A stretch of 64,000 nt of DNA from Acanthopleura granulata. Its lineage: Eukaryota; Mollusca; Polyplacophora; Chitonida; Chitonidae. The stretch is taken from the NCBI GenBank assembly GCA_016165875.1, contig JABBOT010000004.1, forward strand, positions 5,711,351-5,775,350, read 5' to 3'. Below are positions 10,658 to 23,605 of the stretch, one piece after another (within the stretch, counting starts at the first letter, position 1; each line of letters starts with the position of its first letter). The translations under genes and the position numbers were made by a program. The notes under the pieces were generated by a model. That model saw nothing but the letters and a program-made list of their open reading frames with translations, had not been told where the DNA came from and did no database searches.

Positions 10658-10706
10658 AGAAGCCGCCCACCAATGCGGTCGCCGTGAGCTCAAGTCCAGC
10701 TCATGC
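10658..10706 (+). repeat. Left half of a SINE split by the 12.5-kb element
   Basis: CACCAATGCGGTCGCCGTGAG followed by the B-box region and CCAGCTCATGC matches the 5' part of the SINE, then stops abruptly at 10706. The continuation (CTCATGCTGGCTTCCTCTCC) resumes at 23220. The two halves share CTCATGC, as expected of an insertion that duplicated its target. Confidence 0.8.
10700..10706 (+). repeat. Target-site duplication, left copy (CTCATGC)
   Basis: CTCATGC stands immediately left of the element and recurs at 23220-23226 immediately right of it. The uninterrupted SINE, for example at 33874-33890, has this word once, in CCAGCTCATGCTGG. Confidence 0.7.
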
Positions 10707-11041
10707 GAGCCAAGTAATCACGTGGCGTTTCCACTACGCTACAACGCCATGGGAAGGTCCCATTGTAGACAAAAAGCGTAAGCTCGGCCACCTACTGTCC
10801 GGCTTTCATGCAACCAGTCCAGCTCTACTTCTGTGTTGCATTTTTCTCAATAGTTTGGGCACATTGCATCCGCTACAATTTCCGAACCCTAACGCCCACT
10901 TTTAAGTCATAATAAACTCGAACTACCTCCACCTAAATCTCGGTAACGCATGAAGGTGCCATGTTTGATGACGTAAAGCATTGATGACGGGAACAATACT
11001 CGCTCCTTCACCATCTCGATCTCCGTAAAATGTACCATAGA
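10707..11041 (+). repeat. Left terminal inverted repeat of the element
   Basis: Its complement recurs at 22838-23219. Shared words include GTAATCAC, CTCGGCCACCTAC, TGTGTTGCATTTTTCTCA, CATCCGCTACAATTTCC, CGAACTACCTCCAC, CGGTAACGCATGAAGGTGCC, GGGAACAATACT and GTAAAATGTA. The arms have drifted by substitutions and small gaps. The left arm lacks about 90 bases that the right arm holds. Confidence 0.85.
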
Positions 11042-11859
11042 AACTTATTCTCAGCCACGGCATCTTCGTTTTCACTCGCTTTGTTTTATATACATCAAAA
11101 AAAGGAATAAACAAAACATAAAAGACTGTCCATCACAGATTAAGTTCCACGATATCTGTTTACAATACAACAGTTGTTACGACACAAATGGTTCCGTCCT
11201 ATTTTCCGTAAGGCAAGAAACCCGATTCACTTCCGGTATCGGGGCTTGTAACAACACTTCAATGTCAGCCGTAATGCCCAGCGGGAAACTTTCTTGTCCG
11301 CGTGCTTGACTATGACAGAGGCCAGCAGTAATATTTTCCAAACATGTGGAGAGACTTTCAAGAAAGGTCCCAATTTGTAGAACAGAAGAAGCTGCAAGCT
11401 TCTGTCCCCGCACCTAGATAGCTATTATTGCAACCCGTGTTATTCTTTACTGAAAAAGGGTTTGTCAAAAAGGCCTCTCACTGAGAGTCTTAGTCCCGAA
11501 ACTTCCAGCCCAAAGAAGCCAAGACTGAAAGCAGGAGCCGTGTATAGCACTCCAGCGAAAAAAAGATATGCAGCTCTTCGGAAGGTAGATATATTTCAAA
11601 ATGTCTAATATCGTTTAATGAATGACAGAAAGTCAGTGCTCACAAAATCTATAACTCGAACACTCATACTCATTTATAGATTAATGTGTTACATGTATAA
11701 TTTATATAGCAGGAGTGAAAAAGCATAAACCTAGATACAAAAATAAAAATTTGTGTAGGTCTAGTGTACATGTGTCAGTGAAGCCTCCCACCAATGAGAC
11801 TTGGAGTCTGTCATTTTTGGCCAAGCCCAAAACTTAAATCGTTTTCAAAAAAATAAGTA

Positions 11860-12006
11860 TTTGATACTGAAAGCTCAAACTTGGCTGAAATCACCCTATG
11901 ACAGCATAGAATCAGCGGTTAGTATTTGACTAGTGTGATGTATGTATTTCACATTTTAATTTGGATGACAATTTTCGGCTAAAGTCCAAAATTGCTTTGT
12001 GAAACA
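11860..12006 (+). repeat. Dispersed repeat, inverted partner at 16013-16170
   Basis: The complement of 16013-16170 matches here: GCTCAAACTTG, TGAAATC, ATAGAATCAG, TAATTTGGAT and an end GCTTTGTGAAAC. The outer word GGCCCGTTTCACAAAGC in the partner is a terminus type I associate with small DNA elements of molluscs. Both copies lie in introns of the decayed DUF6589 gene. Confidence 0.6.
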
Positions 12007-12059
12007 GGGATCGAATGCGGCATTCTGCTGGCGTTATGTGTGGCAGTGTAACTTACCGA

Positions 12060-12145
12060 AGTCGGTGGGTTCCCACCTCCCACCGTAATATAGCTGAAAT
12101 ACCGCTAAGTATGGCGTTAAACACCTGTCAACCAACCAACCTACA
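12060..12145 (+). repeat. Second repeat family, 3' tail (GGCGTTAAACACC ... CCAACCAACC)
   Basis: AGCTGAAATACCGCTAAGTA is followed by TGGCGTTAAACACCTGTCAACCAACCAACC. A relative lies at 13745-13805 (AGCTGAAATACTGCTGAGCA, then AACCAACCAACA). The tail type differs from the main SINE and is common in mollusc repeats. Confidence 0.45.
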
Positions 12146-13689
12146 AGCCTATGTGTGTGTGGTTTTGTAATGACACAAAACAGAGATGTATCCCTCCAGC
12201 CAACTGAAAATAGTGACTGGATAAAGCCTGGAGAAGTATTAAAATTATTATGATACTTAAGAGATTTTCATTTTTACTCAGTTTTCAGGTTCTCAGAAGA
12301 CGTGTTCATACAGATGTTCAACTCCTGGTACTAAAGCCCTGAGTGGAGGACACTACTATTCAGCTGTTAAGCTGTAAGCTGTTAAATGGGAGGGGATTTT
12401 GTAAAACAATACATGAAGCAATTGTGGAAGAAATGAAAAGAATAACTTGATGGCTCTGTACATGCAAACAACAAGGAACTTCTCTGTTAGAAGTTAACCT
12501 TGAGTTCAATTCAGTCATTGCGCCTTGTGAGTGAGATGCCAAGCAGGTGCCCAGTGACAGTGAAGTTTTTAGCTGGAATACTTTCACACGATAAAGAGAA
12601 GTAAGAATTTAACTTTTGCAATAGGCATACTTTCTAGTTAGTGGTGAACTAGACAATTTGTGCATTCATGTAATTTGATACGTCACAATGGATTTTGAGT
12701 AAGTTTGTATGTGTAACTTAAAAAGAAAGAGCTGAATTTATTTCTGAAATAAAAATCTGTCACTGCCTTTTTCTAATTGTAATTGTCAGGTTCGGGGATG
12801 AACTCCTTCCAGTTCTTGAAATTTTAATGGCCATAATCCTCAATGTGCAGAGCTAGCTATCTGAAATTAATAGAAATTAGCAGATTAATACAAAACTTGA
12901 TGTCACTTGAAATGTATATTTATGAGTATCTTCAACAGGTAAAAACCAAATTTATCATATTAAGTTTTATTTTCTTGATGCCGAAATCTTAATTAGTCAA
13001 AGTGACATAAAAATTGGTGTCTTGACATAGCTTAGTCCACTATAGTTTGGTTAGAAATTCTGTTTTGTCACTATAACCTGTTTTTATTATAAATTTTGTT
13101 CATAGCTGAAGATGAATGATATCAGGAATACTGCAAATCAGCCATTTAAAGATCAGAACTGAAAGTCTGATTTTGTCATGCAATTAAGCAACAATATTTT
13201 AAGATGTTACATTAGTCCATGCTCTAACACTTATAGTGGTCAGAGAGATAAAGGTAAATTTCATTAATGAAGTCATTACAAGTGATCGATGAAAAGCAAT
13301 ATGTGTGCCATTATTTCAGGTATCTTAAAACACAAGGTCAACTACATCATTCTCACTCATGATAATGTGTAACATATTTGATTTTCATTTAAGGGCGTAC
13401 TTGGAATAAGTGAGAAATTATTGATTTCAAATTATTCATTTGGCAGTTATGTAGTGTTATCAACCAATTTCTATTTTGTAAGACACATCTCTGTTCTCCT
13501 CTTCACACATTAATTTTGCTGGTGTATCACATTATTTTGAAGAACACAACCACTTGACTATACATTCTGTTGGGATAACACCCAAACTGATGTAAAAGCC
13601 AGATACTAGATTAAAGGAAAAAACGAGTAGATGATTATTTAGGCACTCTGCTATGCAGCCAAAAACCAGACAGACTTAATTGTGACCCA

Positions 13690-13805
13690 CTTTAACCTCT
13701 CACTCGTGAGGCAGTAGGCTTGAAATCTCCCAGATACACTGGCATGGATATGATACAGCTGAAATACTGCTGAGCACAACGCCATACCACAACCAACCAA
13801 CAAAC
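13690..13805 (+). repeat. Second copy of the CCAACCAAC-tailed repeat
   Basis: A degraded copy with the same AGCTGAAATACTGCTGAG block and an ACCACAACCAACCAACAAACC tail. The 5' part (CTCACTCGTGAGGCAG) is not recognisable elsewhere in the window. Confidence 0.4.
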
Positions 13806-14692
13806 CATACCCTGGAGGTTACCACAGGAGCTACTGTTCAGATCCGCTTAATATTATCTAAACTCGACATTAATCTTTGAATTCTTCCAGAGAATGATTG
13901 ATAGCATATGGCTGCATCCACCACAAAGTGAAGTTTAAAAGAGTGTTTGATGCGGTGGTTCATACAAATCCTGTCTCTTTCAGCATATACTGTAAACAAG
14001 GTATGTTTATGGCCACTAAGATAAACACTATCCCATGTATTTATTTATGATATGATTTCCCAAGGGGTCAATGTCGTAACGGGCAGCGTCTGTCCATCTG
14101 TCTGTCCAAATCCTTGTAAACGCTCTATCTCTAGAACGGTATAGCCCAAGTTCAGCAAACTTTTGCCACACTTACACTCTTGCACGAGGAACCACCCTGA
14201 CCTTTTTCTTCAAGTTTACTGAGGTTATTTAAGTTCATTTTTTACAAGGCTGGTATTCTACAGTGCACGCCGAGGGTGTTTTAGTGCATTGCACAATATG
14301 TGTTAAATATTAAAACAAAACTAATAATAACATTACACGAATTTCAGATGTGCCTGACGGAAGTATGAATTGTTCCCAATCCAAACTGCCCACCTGGAGG
14401 GATTTTTCACGCTTTGTGTGTGAAAATGGTGACTGGAGAAGAGGCGACACAGGGCGATGATTGGTGGTTTTCCCCACAGTGCCATGAGTTCTCGAAATAT
14501 TGCTTGTGTAATGAGTTCATCGATGACGAAACAATGGTTGAATGCTCCAAAAAAAAAAAACAGCTCCAAAAAGCCAGTTTGGAGAGTGGTTTCACCAAAG
14601 ATGCATTGGACTGACAACACTTCCTGGAAATAGTGAGAACTATTATTAAGTGGTCACTGTGTGCTCGGACGCCTATGCAAATTGTTTGGGTC

Positions 14693-14737
14693 ACCACCAT
14701 CACCATCATCATCACCACCATCACCATCATCATCACC

Positions 14738-14771
<34 letters not shown>

Positions 14772-15126
14772 CCACCACCATCACCACCACCACCATCATC
14801 ACCATCACATCATCACCATCACCACCATCACCACCACCATCACCATCATCATCACCACCACCACCACCATCATCATCATCACCACCACCACCATCACCAC
14901 CACCATCATCATCACATCATCATCACCATCACCACCACCACCACCATCACCACCACCACCATCATCATCATCACCACCACCAACATCACCACCACCATCA
15001 TCATCACCATCACAACATCATCACCACCACCACCATCACCACCACCATCATCATCATCACCATCATCATCATCACCACCACCACCACACCACCACCATCA
15101 TCATCACCACCACCACCACCACCACC

Positions 15127-15157
<31 letters not shown>

Positions 15158-15165
15158 CCACCACC

Positions 15166-15197
<32 letters not shown>
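14693..15197 (+). repeat. CAC/CAT trinucleotide array, about 500 bp
   Basis: An almost uninterrupted run of CAC and CAT triplets, with a few phase shifts (CACATC, CACAAC). All three plus frames stay open across most of it and read as poly-His, Ser/Pro or Ile/Thr, and the minus strand as Val/Met. Those ORFs are artefacts of the repeat, not genes. It lies in an intron of the decayed DUF6589 gene. Confidence 0.97.
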
Positions 15198-15425
15198 TTT
15201 TGATTGGCGAAAAGCTTTTAAGAGCTCTAAAAGGATACTTTTTATTGGATGATTTTGGAATTTGGTCATTTTATGAGTAAGGGTTTGAGGGAAATTTTGG
15301 CAGTTTTTTGGTAATTTTGTTGGCCATACTGGATTTTGTTCAAAATCTTTGAAAATCTTCCTGGCAGAACAGATCGTTCTCAAACTTGGTATGTAGCATC
15401 TCCATGTCAATATGTCCCAATCTTT

Positions 15426-15680
15426 ATTTATTTATTTGATTGGTGTTTTACGCCGTACTCCAGAATATTTTACTTATACAACGGCGGGCAGCATTATTGT
15501 GTGAGGAAACAGGGCAGGGCTCAGGGGAAACCCTCCACCATCCGCAGGTTGCTGGCAGACCGTCCAACGTATGGCTGGAGAGGAAGGCAACATGAACTGG
15601 ACTTGAACTTTCAGCGACCGCAGTGATGGGAGGCTTCTTGGTCATTACGCTGCGCTAGCGTGCTAACCAATTGAGCCCCC
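15426..15680 (-). repeat. tRNA-headed SINE nested in the 12.5-kb element
   Basis: A near full-length copy: TTTATTTATTTGATTGGTGT tail complement at the left, GCAGCATTATTGTG body, and GCGCTAGCGTGCTAACCAAT tRNA-head complement at the right end. Direct flanks share CTTTATTTA, so they may be the target duplication. Being inside the element, it inserted later. Confidence 0.88.
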
Positions 15681-16012
15681 AACCTTTATTTAATCAATTA
15701 ATATGTCATTTAATAGGAAGAGTGCAAAAATGTACTGAGATTTTGCCCACAGTAAGAAGTTTTCACGTTATTGCCAGAATATTAAAGAAATCTGGTATTT
15801 ACTTAACATGGGAGCATCGTGCAAGACGATATTTCGTGCACTGAGAAAGTCTCCTCTGGATATCCTCTAGAAATCAATCCTGCAGGAAGTCTTTATAGCT
15901 CGAACCACTTCAGCAGCTGTCATAGAAACAGCAATATTAAACCATTCATCACCGTATTCTTTCTGTTTTTCGTTGTCGGCTATGACTAAAACCGCATCTT
16001 CTCTATGTTGAG

Positions 16013-16170
16013 GCCCGTTTCACAAAGCCGTATTGGGTTTAACCTAAAATTGTTATCCAAATTAAGCTGGGAAATACATGCATCACATTCATCAAATATT
16101 GACCACTGATTCTATGATGTGACAGCGCGATTTCAGTCAAGTTTGAGCATCCAGGATAAAATGTGTGTTT
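16013..16170 (-). repeat. Inverted partner of the repeat at 11860-12006
   Basis: It begins GGCCCGTTTCACAAAGCCG and is complementary to the copy at 11860-12006 with scattered substitutions. The pair could be two insertions of the same small element; no target duplication was found. Confidence 0.6.
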
Positions 16171-16432
16171 TCTAGAAAAGATTAGAGTTTTGGTCTTAAT
16201 CGACCCCTGGTCTTCAGTAATAGTCCCATTACTAGTTACTATTACTAACGTGATTTGCACCCTTAACGCGTCCATGGCTGATCCCAAAAATCGCTATCCA
16301 AGTGTTCCATATTTTGTAGCATGTTTGTCTTTGTGACAAAATCTAAAAGCCTTAATGCTTGGCCACCGGTATCGCTGTAAGGAGTGTAACAACCTTAATT
16401 ATTATCTTGTGATCGAATCAGCTCTCTTCGAT

Positions 16433-16435
16433 CTC

Positions 16436-16481
<46 letters not shown>
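16433..16481 (+). repeat. CT dinucleotide microsatellite
   Basis: A (CT)n run with one CTCCCT interruption, in an intron of the decayed DUF6589 gene. Confidence 0.95.
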
Positions 16482-16482
<1 letters not shown>

Positions 16483-19400
16483 GTAATCATCATCATCACA
16501 ATCTTCATCATTGCACTGCAAAATCTTTCTTGCTGTTGACAGCGAAATATCAAAGCTTAAAGCCTCATTCAGCTTATACTATAAATTTTGATTGGATTTT
16601 CTGATTTTTCTGAAGTGAGAAAGTGGTCCTGTGATAGCAATGTCTAGCCTTAAAACTGTAATTAGCAGTGACATCAAATTAATCAAAAGTTACACTCTAC
16701 TAGTAGAATTTATTTAAATTTTACACCTTTCGTTATTCCTATTGTTTTTTTAGTTTTTCCATGTCACATTGCTTTAACTACATGGTGGCGTATTATTATG
16801 TGGTAAGTTGATCTTCTTTCAAGTGTAAAGTGGATGTGTCCAAATTATGAGACAAGTGCTGATGCAGACAGTGATGCAGTTTTCCAGTATGCAACAGGTC
16901 TCTTGTGGATGCTGTTACACGACAGATTGCCCCTCACGGCAGTGAGGACTGGAAACGGTGCTGTGGTGATGAAATTTTGGACTGATGATGGAATTCAGCT
17001 CTGGAACCATGGACACATCAAATATCTTATTCTGATGCACAGAATGACTGCAGGTGAAGATTTAAAAATGCCTTAATGTATGTTGCAAATAAAGCAATTT
17101 TATATCTGTTGTTATAAAAGATCAAGAAAGAAAGGTTTTAAAATAGCTAACTACTGTCATATAAGTGTTGTTACAATATATGTCTATATACCCTAATTCT
17201 TCAACCTTTTCAATCACTACTGAAAGCAATATTTCAGTATTTTTGTGGAGAACTATAGTGTATGGGAACCACTGTTACAGTTTTATGAAGCTTATACGTA
17301 TGTGACACAAAGAAATCGTTTTTGGCTTTATTTTTACAATAACTGTATGCATAAATTATCCTTTAAAACCTGCTGTAATGATTGCAAAGGATGAGGATTT
17401 ACAGTATGTCCGTATTTAAAAGTGTCATGTAAAATCAAGTTGCTAGACTAAAGGCTAATCCCTAACTTCAACATTCTTTAATTTATAGCAGTGAGCGTAT
17501 CTCTTGCAGGTGGCTATTACCGAGACAAGCAGCTGACATGACGTGGGACACAGCCGTTAACCTACATGGGCATGGATAAATATAATGAGTTTTCATAAAT
17601 TGTGATTTCAAAGGTAAATTTATTGTCATCTGTTGTTACATGTAATAAGACGGAATGCTTTACGGTAATGACCCAGAGCATCAGAAATTGATAATACTAT
17701 TTGTGTTGTATTCACATTGCAGATTTATTATGTATCTGTATATGATATGTATTAATATCATGATGAACAGCGTGTAACTTTGTTGGGACATAGGACAATG
17801 ACTATATAGTCAAATCTGATAAAAAATACTCGAAATTCACAACTTCAGCAATGATGTAGATTTTAGTTTTAAGACTCTTAACATAAATTACCGTAATTAC
17901 TACAAAGGTGCTATAGGTTTTCAAGACATGCTTGTACATTTATTAACATGTGGGGAAACAAGCTACCCTAAATCTTTAACTAATTCAACCAGTAAAGAGT
18001 AACTGCATTTTCAAGTTAAAATTGAGAAAATATCTCCGCCTTAACTGTCTCCCTGAGATATCACAAGTGAGGATGGTTTGGAAGTCATAATATAATCTGT
18101 ATATAGGAAGTACTGGCTATACAAGAAGTCAAAGCCAAAACAATGTTACTGGTTGTATTTGTTGTGGGTTTAAGTTATGAGTATCTGGTACCAAAAATTG
18201 TATAATGTAAATTAAAATAAATCATACAATACAGAAAACAAGTTTTATAAAGTTACACTCCTGCTTGACGGGGATATGTGTTTTTTCTTGTAGGCAACTT
18301 GAAGAACACACATAGGAAATATACACCGGTACAGACACAAAGTAGCAGTCATCTTGCTGGTCAAGTTTCTACAGAGCTGCTTGGTATCTTTCAGCCGCAC
18401 AGCAAAGTACAGAATAGCAGTTGTGTAAAATTCACGTCCAAGGGCCAGAAAGCCAGAGTCACCTCTTTCACAAAAGAGTATGAAGATGACAACTTGTTTC
18501 CCTGTATTGCAGATCGGCAGTATGCAACCTCCCCAGGATTCAATGCAAGTTAACTTCACCACACCATTCACAAACCTATGGATTTGAAGTCACGTATGTC
18601 CAACTATTCTACTTAATTAGACCAAGCCCGCTATGCCTCGGAAGGTATGCAGTCATAACTAAGATATTTACACATTGATTGGCAATGTTGCAACAGGAAC
18701 AGAAAGGACAGGCACACTCTCCTTTGGGGCAATCACTTATGCATCTCTCCTTGTTGCGGACTTTATCTATCTCATTCTTTTCCATACATACAAGGTGAAG
18801 GCGGTTTAGAATTGCAGTTCTGATGAACAGTTTTTCTTCCATTATTTGTTTGTGGATTTTGCGGACACAATCCTCCTTGATTCCTCTGTCGCCCACAGTC
18901 GGAGGAGTTGCCAGAACAGCTCGGGCGGCTCTCCCATCACACCCATACCCTCCCACCTCATGCCAGTAATCTGGGACAGTTGAACTGCATCCCCGGTGGA
19001 AAATGATGTGGATAATTCCACATCCGGAAAATTTACTCCCATGACACCGGCAAAGAAGCTGTTAAACATCTAATATGTTATGTTGCGTGAGGAAAGTGCT
19101 AATTATTTCTTCTTTTGCTTCTTCACTTGTTCTTGCAACAAATATATCGCTTCCTCTCCTCTCCATACGCTTTTTCTCTAAGCCTGTTCATTATCTCCTC
19201 GTAGAATTCTCCAGCAGGATTTACACGATTGTGAAGAAAGACCTAGCCTTAATACAATAATTTATGTGCATTGTAGTTTCAACTTTCAGATTCACATTTG
19301 TAAGATGATAGAGTGTGGATTAAAGTATAATAAATCTGCTCACTTAACACACATCAAAAAGTGAAACAATGAAACATTATAAATCATTAAAGGAGAAGGC

Positions 19401-20642
19401 AGTAAAAGAATGAAAATACATACGTTTGGATAGCACGTTTATAACTGACTCAACAAGATTGTTTGGTTGTAGAGTAAATTTGAAAGGAAAAAATATATTT
19501 TATGGTAGGCAGTTCAAGTCATTTTGATTTAGTGGTTCAAAGATGACACCATTATAAAAGATTACCAAGTTTTCCCGCTGACGCTTTGTTATACTTGACG
19601 TGCATGTATAATTTATGCATACATTATACACAGGCGTACACTGCAGGGCCCAATAAATGTCTAAAAAGTTGTTTGACGTCATGTAAGAACCAATATGTCA
19701 CAATGTCTCGAGCTGTCCACCATACTTTTCAAGTTTTCTTTTTCAGTTTTCTCTTCAACAACAAATTCTACGAAATAATGGAGCACATGTTTGAAATCGG
19801 TTTTTAATGCTCCTTAATCTGACTTAAACTTCTTTTTTGTTTTCTTTTACAACGGACACTGCATTAGGTATGTAGTTAAGGGGAGCCAGCTGAAAAAAGA
19901 AAACATATAGCTCAAAGTTTTCTCTGCAGTCAAAATTGTAATAGACCCATAAATTAACTGGAATAGCACTCACTTACATATGACGCATTTTCCGGCTTTT
20001 ATCTCCTTGCTATTGAGTTCATCAATGCAAATGTAAGCTCCTTAGCACTTTGAATGACTGGAAAACTTCTATAAGTCAGATGAATATTTGACCTAAAAAA
20101 ACATGAAGGTAAAGAAGATTACATTATAATTCAAATAGATATGGTTTAGCAGTCCTGGTCTATTAAGTCCCACAAATTCTAAATATCATAATTCAAACAT
20201 TTGCCTTACATTATGCCAATTGTTTTTCCATTAACATTATGCGAATTAGTACCAAAACTGTAAATGTTAATCAGATATTATGGTTGTTTTTGCTTTTATA
20301 TTTTTTATGTTTTAACCCACATCAGACATTCCAGACGTATCTTATTATATATGTATATATTTTTTTCATTTTAATGTTTTTCAAAGATTCATGGAAGATA
20401 ACATGTTTTCATTACTTAAAAAGTTATGAAAATGTGTTTCTAAGAGAAAATCAAACCTCTGTGACTTACATTTTTTGATAAATAATTCTTGTGCAATAGG
20501 CATCAAACATAGTATTTCATAAAGAGACTAATGTATGTTTAACAACAATTCTTCTGGCAGAAGTAAGATCATATGTTGATATCCAGGTATTTTGTGTGTA
20601 ATAATCTATTTACCACTTGTGATCTACAGATGTGTCATAAGG

Positions 20643-20645
20643 ACA

Positions 20646-20689
<44 letters not shown>

Positions 20690-20693
20690 GCTC
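20643..20693 (+). repeat. CT dinucleotide microsatellite
   Basis: A (CT)n run with single TT and CG interruptions; it abuts the fourth block of the helicase pseudogene and generates a false Arg-Glu repeat on the minus strand. Confidence 0.95.
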
Positions 20694-21775
20694 TGTACAC
20701 TGACTCACTGACTGAAGTCTGAGAATTTCGTCTTTCATTTTTCCGCACATGTGAAGGAAAGGTGATCCCTTCATTACTGAACGCAGCTAAGTAATCTTCA
20801 GGTAGTCCTCTCGAAAGCCTTTTCCCTACAAAGAAAAATACTCGAGTTATAAGTTTACACAAAACTAAGTCATTATACGTGTATAGTGCAAGCTAGTTAG
20901 AAATTTGTGACACTTTCTTCTGTGTTTGAATGCTAGATGCACAAGTTTGTTTGCATATAGACTGTAGAATGATTGTGTCTGTATCCTCACGGAAACTTAC
21001 AATGCATAGTGTCATATATATTTAGCCATGTGCTTGCTGCACTATTCCCCACAATGTCATCCCTCAATGTACTGAGGACACAACAGAGATCTGCTGGATC
21101 ATGTCATTGTTCAATAAATCCATTTACAGAAAATTTAAATTCAAGAATTATTTATGCCTTTCTCAATGTGTCATAAAATATCTGTTGTTATGAAATGTCA
21201 CTTACCAATGAATGACACAGTGGGCCTCAGCAATAGCAACCAATGCGACTGTTTTTCTAAAAAAAAAGTTGGTCGAAATATTTCATTCCATAGGTCAGCG
21301 TTGACGGCTTCTGGTGAAATGAACACCACAGAACACATACCTGTCTTGATATCTAAGGAAATAAAATATATATAGAATCCATATTATTCTCATATCGCCC
21401 TATGTGCTTTTCTCTGAGTGTATATAGCTACATTGTGTTTATCTCATTTTTCGGCACATTCCTTCATGCCCTTTCCAGATTTAGCTAACGGATAAATACA
21501 TATAATTATATTATAATGCAATATTTTTTCACATCACATAAAAACATTACCTTCCATAAGCTCAAGTGACATCTCTGACGGCTGGAGTATTGCTGCTGCC
21601 TGTGCGCCATTTTCTGCTCGCCTCCCCCCGCCGGATCCTGCATTAGACTTCTCAACGGAGACACAAGTCTTACATACTTCACTTCGGGTTCTACCTGTGA
21701 AGAGTTAAGCCATATAGGCTTCAGACTTGGGATTAATGTAATTTTAAATAAGCTTCAAATGACCACCTAAAATTG

Positions 21776-22024
21776 ATTTATTTATTTATTTCATAGGTGG
21801 TTTACGCCTTATTGAAGAATATGTCGCTTATACAATGGCGGCCAGCATTATGGTGAGGGACACTGGGCAGAGCCTAAGGGAACCGCACGACCCTCAGAAT
21901 TCTGGCGGACCTCCACGTGTACGACAGAAGGGGCAGGCTGCAGGGCTTGCACTCACAACAATTGCATTGGTGAGAGGCACCCGGGTAATTACGCTTAACT
22001 TGTCCGCTAACCCCCTCGGCCACA
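21776..22024 (-). repeat. tRNA-headed SINE nested in the helicase pseudogene
   Basis: Starts with the (TTTA)n tail complement and GGTTTACGCCTTATTGAAGA, continues with TGGCGGCCAGCATTATGGTG, and ends with the head complement (GCTAACCCCCTCGGCCACA). It lies in the intron between helicase blocks 22607 and 21694, so it is younger than the element. Confidence 0.85.
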
Positions 22025-22837
22025 GATTAGTCTATATATTAGTTTATGCCAATGACTCTGACATTTTAAATAGTATTTAATAATAGTGTAAATTATATTT
22101 TATAGATTGCTTTTTTTCAACTTTCCATAAAAGATAAACGCTGAACTTTATTTCCTTTTTTTTCAGAAGACACATCAATAATGTAAAATTCCCATTTCAT
22201 GGTTGTTTGAAAGTAAAAAATTGGCTAAAGTTGATAGCTTACATGTGTACTTCGGGCGTTTGTAAAGATTACAGGTGTGCTAATGATCATCGCTGATCCA
22301 CTTTTTCGATCTTCATTGAGAAAAGGACATTCTACCATGTGACACCATCCTAATCTTCACTAAAGCCATACTCTGTAGTGTTTAATGATCTGACACGTGT
22401 AGATTATGTTCTTATATTTCATCTAATTTTAATTTTCATTTTTTGTTGGGATGACTTAAATATGCAGAGCGCTTCAAACATTTTATTTTAAAAAAATATA
22501 TAGTGTGTCAGGGATTATTTTAAAAAAATAAAATACAAAAACTGAAATAATAATAATAAAATACCGGTAAATGCAAAGTAAAGCTTGAAGAAAAAACATT
22601 TCTTACCTCGCCCAGTATCAAGGGAGGAATGTTGTAGCACATCGATTTCCCAAATAAGAATCCCCATACTGTCTTTCTTGTTCAAAATATGCTCTATTAT
22701 AGCCAGTTGTTCATTCTTTAGTTCAATATCTAGACCGTGGCGACATTTGATTCTCTCAAACATATAGTATTTCAGCCTTGCCCATGTTTGCAACAAAGTT
22801 TGTGAAGGTTGATGTTAAGTAGCTGAGAATAAGGCCC

Positions 22838-23219
22838 TAGGATACATTTTACAGCGGTCGGTATGATGAAGGGGAAAGTATTGTTCCCATAATGCACTGC
22901 GTCATCAATCATGGCACCTTCATGCGTTACCGAGGTTTAAGTGGAGGTAGTTCGAATTTATTATGGTTTAACAGTGGGGTTGGAAATTGTAGCGGATGCA
23001 AAGCACCCAACCCAATGAGAAAAATGCAACACAGAGGCAGAGCCGGACTGGTCGGGTGGACCGGACGGTAGGTGGCCGAGTTTGCGTCATTAGTGTTCAA
23101 TGGAACCTCCCCATGTAGGCCAACACGCTGCCCTACATGTCCACATTATTTTAACCCATCTAAGCGCCCATCCCATTTCAAAATTTCTTTGTGATTACGC
23201 CATGTGATTACATGTTTAC
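22838..23219 (-). repeat. Right terminal inverted repeat of the element
   Basis: Reverse complement of the left arm at 10707-11041. It contains an extra block (about 23113-23190, beginning TGTAGGCCAACACGCTGCCC) that the left arm lacks and of which a second copy stands at 23523-23605. It ends CATGTTTAC at 23219, directly before the second CTCATGC. Confidence 0.85.
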
Positions 23220-23393
23220 CTCATGCTGGCTTCCTCTCCTGCCGGAAGGTCGCCCAGCAATGGGATGGCTGTGGCTTTCCTCCGGGCTCCTCCATTTTTC
23301 CTCACACCATACTGCTGGCCGCCTTCGTGTAAGTGAAATAATCTTGAGTACGGCGTAAAACATAGATCAAACAAATAAATAAATAGGGGTGTA
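23220..23393 (+). repeat. Right half of the SINE split by the element, with target duplication 23220-23226
   Basis: CTCATGCTGGCTTCCTCTCC opens the 3' part of the SINE; CTGGCCGCC, GTAAGTGAAATAATCTTGAG, TACGGCGTAAAACA and AATAAATAAATA follow in normal order. The first seven bases repeat those at 10700-10706. Confidence 0.82.
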
Positions 23394-23522: not shown

Positions 23523-23605
23523 ATGTAGGCCAACACACTGCCCTACATATCCACATTCTTTTAACCCATCTAAGCGCCCATCCCATTTCAAAGTTCATAA
23601 CTTTT
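23523..23605 (+). repeat. Short repeat also present in the right arm
   Basis: TGTAGGCCAACACACTGCCC through GCGCCCATCCCATTTCAAA matches 23113-23190 nearly base for base. The start TGTAGG...CCCTACA can pair with itself, so the unit may be a small hairpin-ended repeat. Confidence 0.6.

Follow-up and report, generated by a model that had tools for sequence, protein, structure and literature searches.

A helicase aboard a cut-and-paste transposon is mechanistically odd. Kolobok elements use TTAA as target site, and Mutator-like elements (MULEs) have long inverted repeats, target-site duplications of 8-10 bp (typically 9 bp) and many non-autonomous derivatives. AcademH is said to be a lineage of the Academ superfamily found in animals and fungi, reportedly introduced in Kojima 2020, Mob DNA 11:15. 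One source gives 9 or 10 bp duplications for AcademH and 3 or 4 bp for AcademX, and ties these lengths to the encoded helicase and nuclease (PMC10045372), and a second ascribes the domains Helicase_C, DEAD, PIF1 and Helitron_like_N to AcademH, KolobokH or Helitron elements (PMC10799480). According to a third (PMC9587614), KolobokH, which occurs in fungi, carries a RecQ helicase, and in the red-algal Kolobok-1_CCri the helicase lies on the complementary strand. In this study, a stretch of 64,000 nucleotides from the chiton Acanthopleura granulata (hereafter the window; contig C4 of the host assembly, from position 5711351) was found to hold, at 10707-23217, a single decayed DNA transposon, which is likely one dead copy of an AcademH-type element. 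The first-pass annotation of the window knew of no named superfamily with such contents; this was probably wrong, because the duplication length and the helicase fit AcademH, so that the helicase-bearing type has probably been described already and the window element would add a chiton member to it.

Three traits of AcademH are present in the window element, namely a 9-bp duplication, an internal helicase and terminal inverted repeats, and AcademH is likewise reported to be a DNA transposon with a helicase inside and 9- or 10-bp duplications. The likeness concerns the helicase as such; the RecQ type is that of the window element. The host differs, in that a survey of molluscs found Academ elements almost confined to bivalves (PMC10294476). 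Kolobok elements offer a second comparison (PMC9587614): KolobokH and Kolobok-1_CCri resemble the window element in that a RecQ helicase and a transposase, which in the window is putative, belong to a single DNA transposon, and Kolobok-1_CCri also in having the helicase on the complementary strand. Kolobok as a whole is unlike it in target site, with varied 9-bp duplications here instead of the TTAA of that superfamily.

The two arms of the element, about 350-400 bp each, lie in inverted orientation, as the first-pass annotation had described; an alignment of 311 bp joins left 10748-11058 to right 22819-23115 (79.7% identity, E 6.5e-76), four repeat pairs in the self-comparison of the window show the arms as well, and the right arm exceeds the left by about 63 bp in its outer part. 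Between the arms lie two genes, tail to tail: one on the minus strand, for a RecQ-type helicase, and one on the plus strand. A query of the host assembly (606.5 Mb, 87 contigs) with the left arm gave at least 74 matches (40 scored of 479 first-look candidates). Leaving the window aside, 39 loci were scored, and 32 of them have a facing arm within about 1 kb; small gene-less relatives are scattered across the host genome. All 20 of the facing pairs that were fetched (20 of the 32) share the terminus TAGCCAAGTAATCACATGGC and have both arms and no genes past the helicase start; in 18 of them the match with the window continues to 22699 or lower, and in the other two it ends at 22760 and 22786. 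Because the retained stretch 22692-22818 is outside the inverted repeat and holds the helicase start, these short copies are, judging from their sequences, internal-deletion derivatives of the family of the window element, that is, miniature inverted-repeat transposable elements (MITEs). Arms without genes, named in the first-pass annotation as an observation that would speak against one mobile unit, were thus seen in 20 of 20 short copies and instead support the unit, the same ends being kept in deletion derivatives.

The MITE termini set the positions of the target-site duplication. In 15 of the 20 short copies the flanks were 70% identical at length 9, where shuffles averaged 29% and reached 47% at most, and at every other length between 2 and 14 the identity stayed within the shuffle maximum; the five copies omitted (L008, L011, L016, L017 and L020) have more than 6 mismatches in a terminus, and L011 still has a clean 9-bp repeat. 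Duplications in the family are therefore 9 bp long and varied in sequence. The match in the window needs a right terminus one base shorter than in the ungapped placement. A shared CTCATGC outside the arms had earlier been taken for a 7-bp duplication; it is present at both termini, at 10700 and 23220, and lies within the 9 bp. The 7-bp length is ruled out, since the readable relatives show length 9 alone. CTCATGC by itself carries little weight because it occurs 6 times on the plus strand and 4 times on the minus strand across the 64 kb; the pair does sit at termini that were defined from independent copies. The earlier proposal that the arms and what lies between them formed one mobile unit is borne out by the family termini, by the 9-bp duplications and by other copies that end alike, and the termini together with the duplication length can be used for annotating the host genome.

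The minus-strand gene between the arms is a RecQ-type helicase gene, its pieces 22814-22601, 21754-21509, 21344-21205, 19069-18905 and 18800-18612 following one another in RecQ order. When joined by hand, the pieces matched DEAD at 4e-4 (Pfam, below the Pfam cut-off), RecQ TIGR01389 at 6e-15 (far below the curated cut-off) and solved RecQ and WRN chains in the PDB at about 4e-6, E-values that are optimistic because the pieces were picked by eye. These matches lie in the N-terminal half, at about residues 31-167 of the joined sequence; no match reached the last two pieces, which were placed by their order and by the copies at C86, another contig of the host assembly (as are C8 and C18 below). 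A TIGR01389 scan of the host genome, which hits the C86 copies, is an independent test of the helicase identity: among its 33 matches are both C86 copies, at 9e-11 and 1.7e-10, in the C-terminal half and in the counterpart of window 18906-19100. The RecQ-like helicase named in the first-pass annotation was thus confirmed by the joined-piece matches and by the genome scan. A RecQ match at C18:5914757-5922613 was rejected as a further copy, its frames resembling, by look, a WRN-type gene of the host.

One further locus, on C86, retains gene-bearing parts of the element. It consists of C86:1890594-1894257 and a copy duplicated in tandem from 1901108 (96-99.6% identity between their aligned pieces), each holding one terminus with its arm, helicase sequence and the counterpart of window 18902-18037, where the two genes meet; piece by piece, the first copy has 80-87% identity with the window. 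Being duplicates of each other, the two copies are not independent evidence. A search for full copies, as the first-pass annotation had suggested, found one arm, the helicase and abutting 3' ends retained and the second arm absent, and 49.6 kb around the locus held no second arm and no further plus-strand gene. The stretch C86:1887656-1908093 comprises about 11 kb with a helicase remnant, tandemly duplicated, and both copies have the same internal inversion.

Several points weigh against an AcademH-type transposon with a RecQ-type helicase, beginning with the optimism of the joined-piece E-values. The single helicase pieces that were tried had no helicase match in Pfam or the PDB (18905..19069 alone gave nothing in the PDB, and 18845-19069 no helicase in Pfam), Pfam scans of read-through frames did not detect the helicase, and the window is not among the 33 TIGR01389 matches of the host genome. 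Both arms and both genes were seen together in the window only; at C86 the second arm is missing, as is most of the plus-strand gene, and the pieces that match window 18906-19638 and 20370-21223 are inverted. Membership in AcademH was inferred from the duplication length and the helicase, and the defining Academ-type DDD/E transposase lies outside that basis. Finally, long inverted repeats with 9-bp duplications are also typical of Mutator-like elements, so that the window element fits these as well.

The last point leads to the alternative of a Mutator-like element with a MULE transposase that captured or otherwise gained a RecQ helicase gene. Arms of hundreds of base pairs, 9-bp duplications and many non-autonomous derivatives are shared by the window element and by MULEs. 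The window element differs in having a helicase, and scanning both strands in read-through frames between 11001 and about 22900 revealed no MULE domain, a weak negative since the same scans missed the helicase. An accompanying helicase is an AcademH trait according to PMC10045372, and we consider a MULE origin unlikely.

A further alternative depends on what the plus-strand gene encodes. The C86 frame matching window 18269-18550 is open for 110 codons and indel-free over 334 bp, and the other plus-strand frames there have 5 or 6 stops in C86 and 4 and 5 in the window; one stop, at 18551, interrupts the frame in the window and is lacking in the C86 copies. Because an opposite-strand frame also has just 1-2 stops, the open frame is support, not proof, of a coding exon. 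Convergent genes with 3' ends about 60 bp apart had been described earlier; the plus-strand gene does end beside the helicase, and the distance of about 60 bp is judged by the window-only stop at 18551. Since the C86 frame continues past this stop, the two genes may abut or overlap.

The first-pass annotation had assigned this gene to DUF6589 (PF20231), a Pfam family whose role is not known, and this was not borne out. The PF20231 profile, scanned against the read-through frames on either strand and against single exons, returned no match up to E 10, in scans that were insensitive in that the read-through ones missed the helicase too; three DUF6589 proteins (P0002-P0004) as tblastn queries yielded no hit inside the element up to E 1, and 11381-11605 had no family match. 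The possible exon 16807-17073 aligns at the expected place of P0003 with a score of 47, reached by 4 of 300 shuffles, and with P0004 at 45 (11 of 300), and it scores best of 314 open stretches, two others reaching 46. Against P0005 its score was equalled by shuffles in 212 of 300 cases, and a local four-protein DUF6589 profile gave -6.6 bits at 16837-17052 versus -5.6 at the unrelated 22419-22502. A protein search with the exon returned 24 candidates, none at E up to 10, and of 7995 proteins scored with a DUF6589 alignment 2 were retained, the query P0004 being one. When the window was compared with the first C86 copy, codon-position bias followed no clear pattern, and of 105 pattern matches in viral contigs none was confirmed. 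DUF6589 as the recombinase, also proposed earlier, is possible and was not borne out by profile, tblastn or fold prediction; folding a DUF6589 protein, a check proposed with it, gave a mean predicted local distance difference test (pLDDT) score of 35.5 with AlphaFold from a 4-row alignment, a fold that is uninformative.

In the host genome, the PF20231 scan made a single match, at C8:56277-56867, and a DUF6589 protein query found the same locus only. C8:55525-57593 is a broken DUF6589 gene with a relative in Liolophura sinensis (LOC135473320, 79% over 48% of the query), and it was rejected as a relative of the window element, since neither window arms nor a match to the helicase pieces turned up in the surrounding 19.7 kb. 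Near this locus, frames at about 59.3-60.1 kb resemble, by look, a reverse transcriptase. A transposon of a separate kind, with a DUF6589 transposase and a RecQ helicase as partner, outside Academ and all named superfamilies, would agree with the P0003 alignment and with a literature search in which DUF6589 was not mentioned and the one PF20231 mention was unrelated; the empty profile and tblastn searches, the shuffles and the profile score elsewhere, and the armless locus on C8 speak against it, and we hold it to be improbable, about as much so as a MULE origin. It is somewhat less doubtful, as a tentative suggestion, that DUF6589 might be the catalytic transposase of helicase-bearing AcademH-type transposons, with DUF6589 genes being mobile-element genes and DUF6589 plus a RecQ-type helicase forming the autonomous core. 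Should the plus-strand gene indeed be DUF6589, a function would be at hand for an orphan protein family. That the window holds no single element, and that two MITEs of the same family flank unrelated host or pseudogene sequence by chance, would draw on the number of such MITEs and is very improbable, as each arm is a single end turned towards the other, a matching 9-bp duplication flanks the pair, and helicase-start sequence lies next to the right arm not only in the window but also in the C86 copies and 18 of 20 MITEs.

For an AcademH-type element, we propose that a transposase with an aspartate-aspartate-glutamate (DDE) type of catalytic core, most likely encoded by the plus-strand gene, would recognise the long terminal inverted repeats, excise the element and join it to staggered target cuts, giving 9-bp duplications. 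The RecQ-type helicase, tail to tail with the transposase gene, might help transposition by unwinding the ends, the target or the gap. A derivative that had lost the genes by deletion and kept both ends would then have been mobilised in trans. The MITEs diverge from their majority sequence by 9.5-13.7% (mean 11.4%), and this narrow range suggests that they spread in one old burst. The helicase-bearing transposon type would be extended, together with an old MITE burst, to a chiton, a host group with few records of Academ.

Table 1. Features of the transposon and its immediate flanks in the A. granulata window.
Feature	Position	Strand	Remarks
Left target-site duplication	10698..10706	.	AGCTCATGC; position set by terminus of MITE copies
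Left terminal inverted repeat	10707..11058	+	terminus GAGCCAAGTAATCAC; family terminus TAGCCAAGTAATCACATGGC
Possible first exon, plus-strand gene	11303..11605	+	ends TPAKKRYAALRKVDIFQNV; one internal stop; by eye, tentative
SINE-like repeat (by look)	15423..15676	+	GGTGTTTTACGCCGTACTC...; inserted in element
Possible exon, plus-strand gene	16807..17073	+	weak likeness to DUF6589 C-terminal part, GHIKY...RMTA
Frequent genomic repeat copy	17189..17407	+	1429 first-look candidates for whole query, 40 scored
Last exon, plus-strand gene (putative)	18269..18550	+	open in same frame in C86 copies; no Pfam match
Presumed helicase C-terminal end	18612..18800	-	CPFCSCCNI; placed by position and order; no family match of its own
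Helicase motifs V/VI region	18905..19069	-	GVNFPD; homologous stretch of C86 matches TIGR01389
Helicase Walker B region	21205..21344	-	VVFISPEAVN, EAHCVIHW
Helicase motif Ia region	21509..21754	-	VRLVSPLRSLMQD
SINE-like repeat, second copy	21771..21918	+	same repeat as 15423..15676
Helicase first exon	22601..22814	-	LKNEQLAIIEHIL, then FGKS past a frame change
Right-end-specific stretch	22692..22818	-	outside inverted repeat; helicase start; kept in MITEs
Right terminal inverted repeat	22819..23217	-	contains 23113-23185 stretch of 73 bp
Right target-site duplication	23218..23226	.	ACCTCATGC; 8/9 equal to left AGCTCATGC

Some minor features of the family and of the locus may be added. No facing arm was present at 7 of the 39 scored left-arm loci other than the window, and two of these 7, inspected within 1.5 kb, had no second facing arm; at L003 the MITE sequence runs to the counterpart of window 22692-22851, after which the match ends, and at L004 a facing arm was not found within 1.5 kb. 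The 73-bp stretch in the right arm (23113-23185) is directly repeated at 95% outside the element (23523-23595). Inside the element, 14612-15226 is a long degenerate triplet-rich tract with runs of His, Pro, Ser and Thr across three frames, and its open frames are not genes. The repeat resembling a short interspersed nuclear element (SINE in Table 1) has a further copy beside the element, at 23244-23385, and the same repeat was met at C8, C86 and C18.

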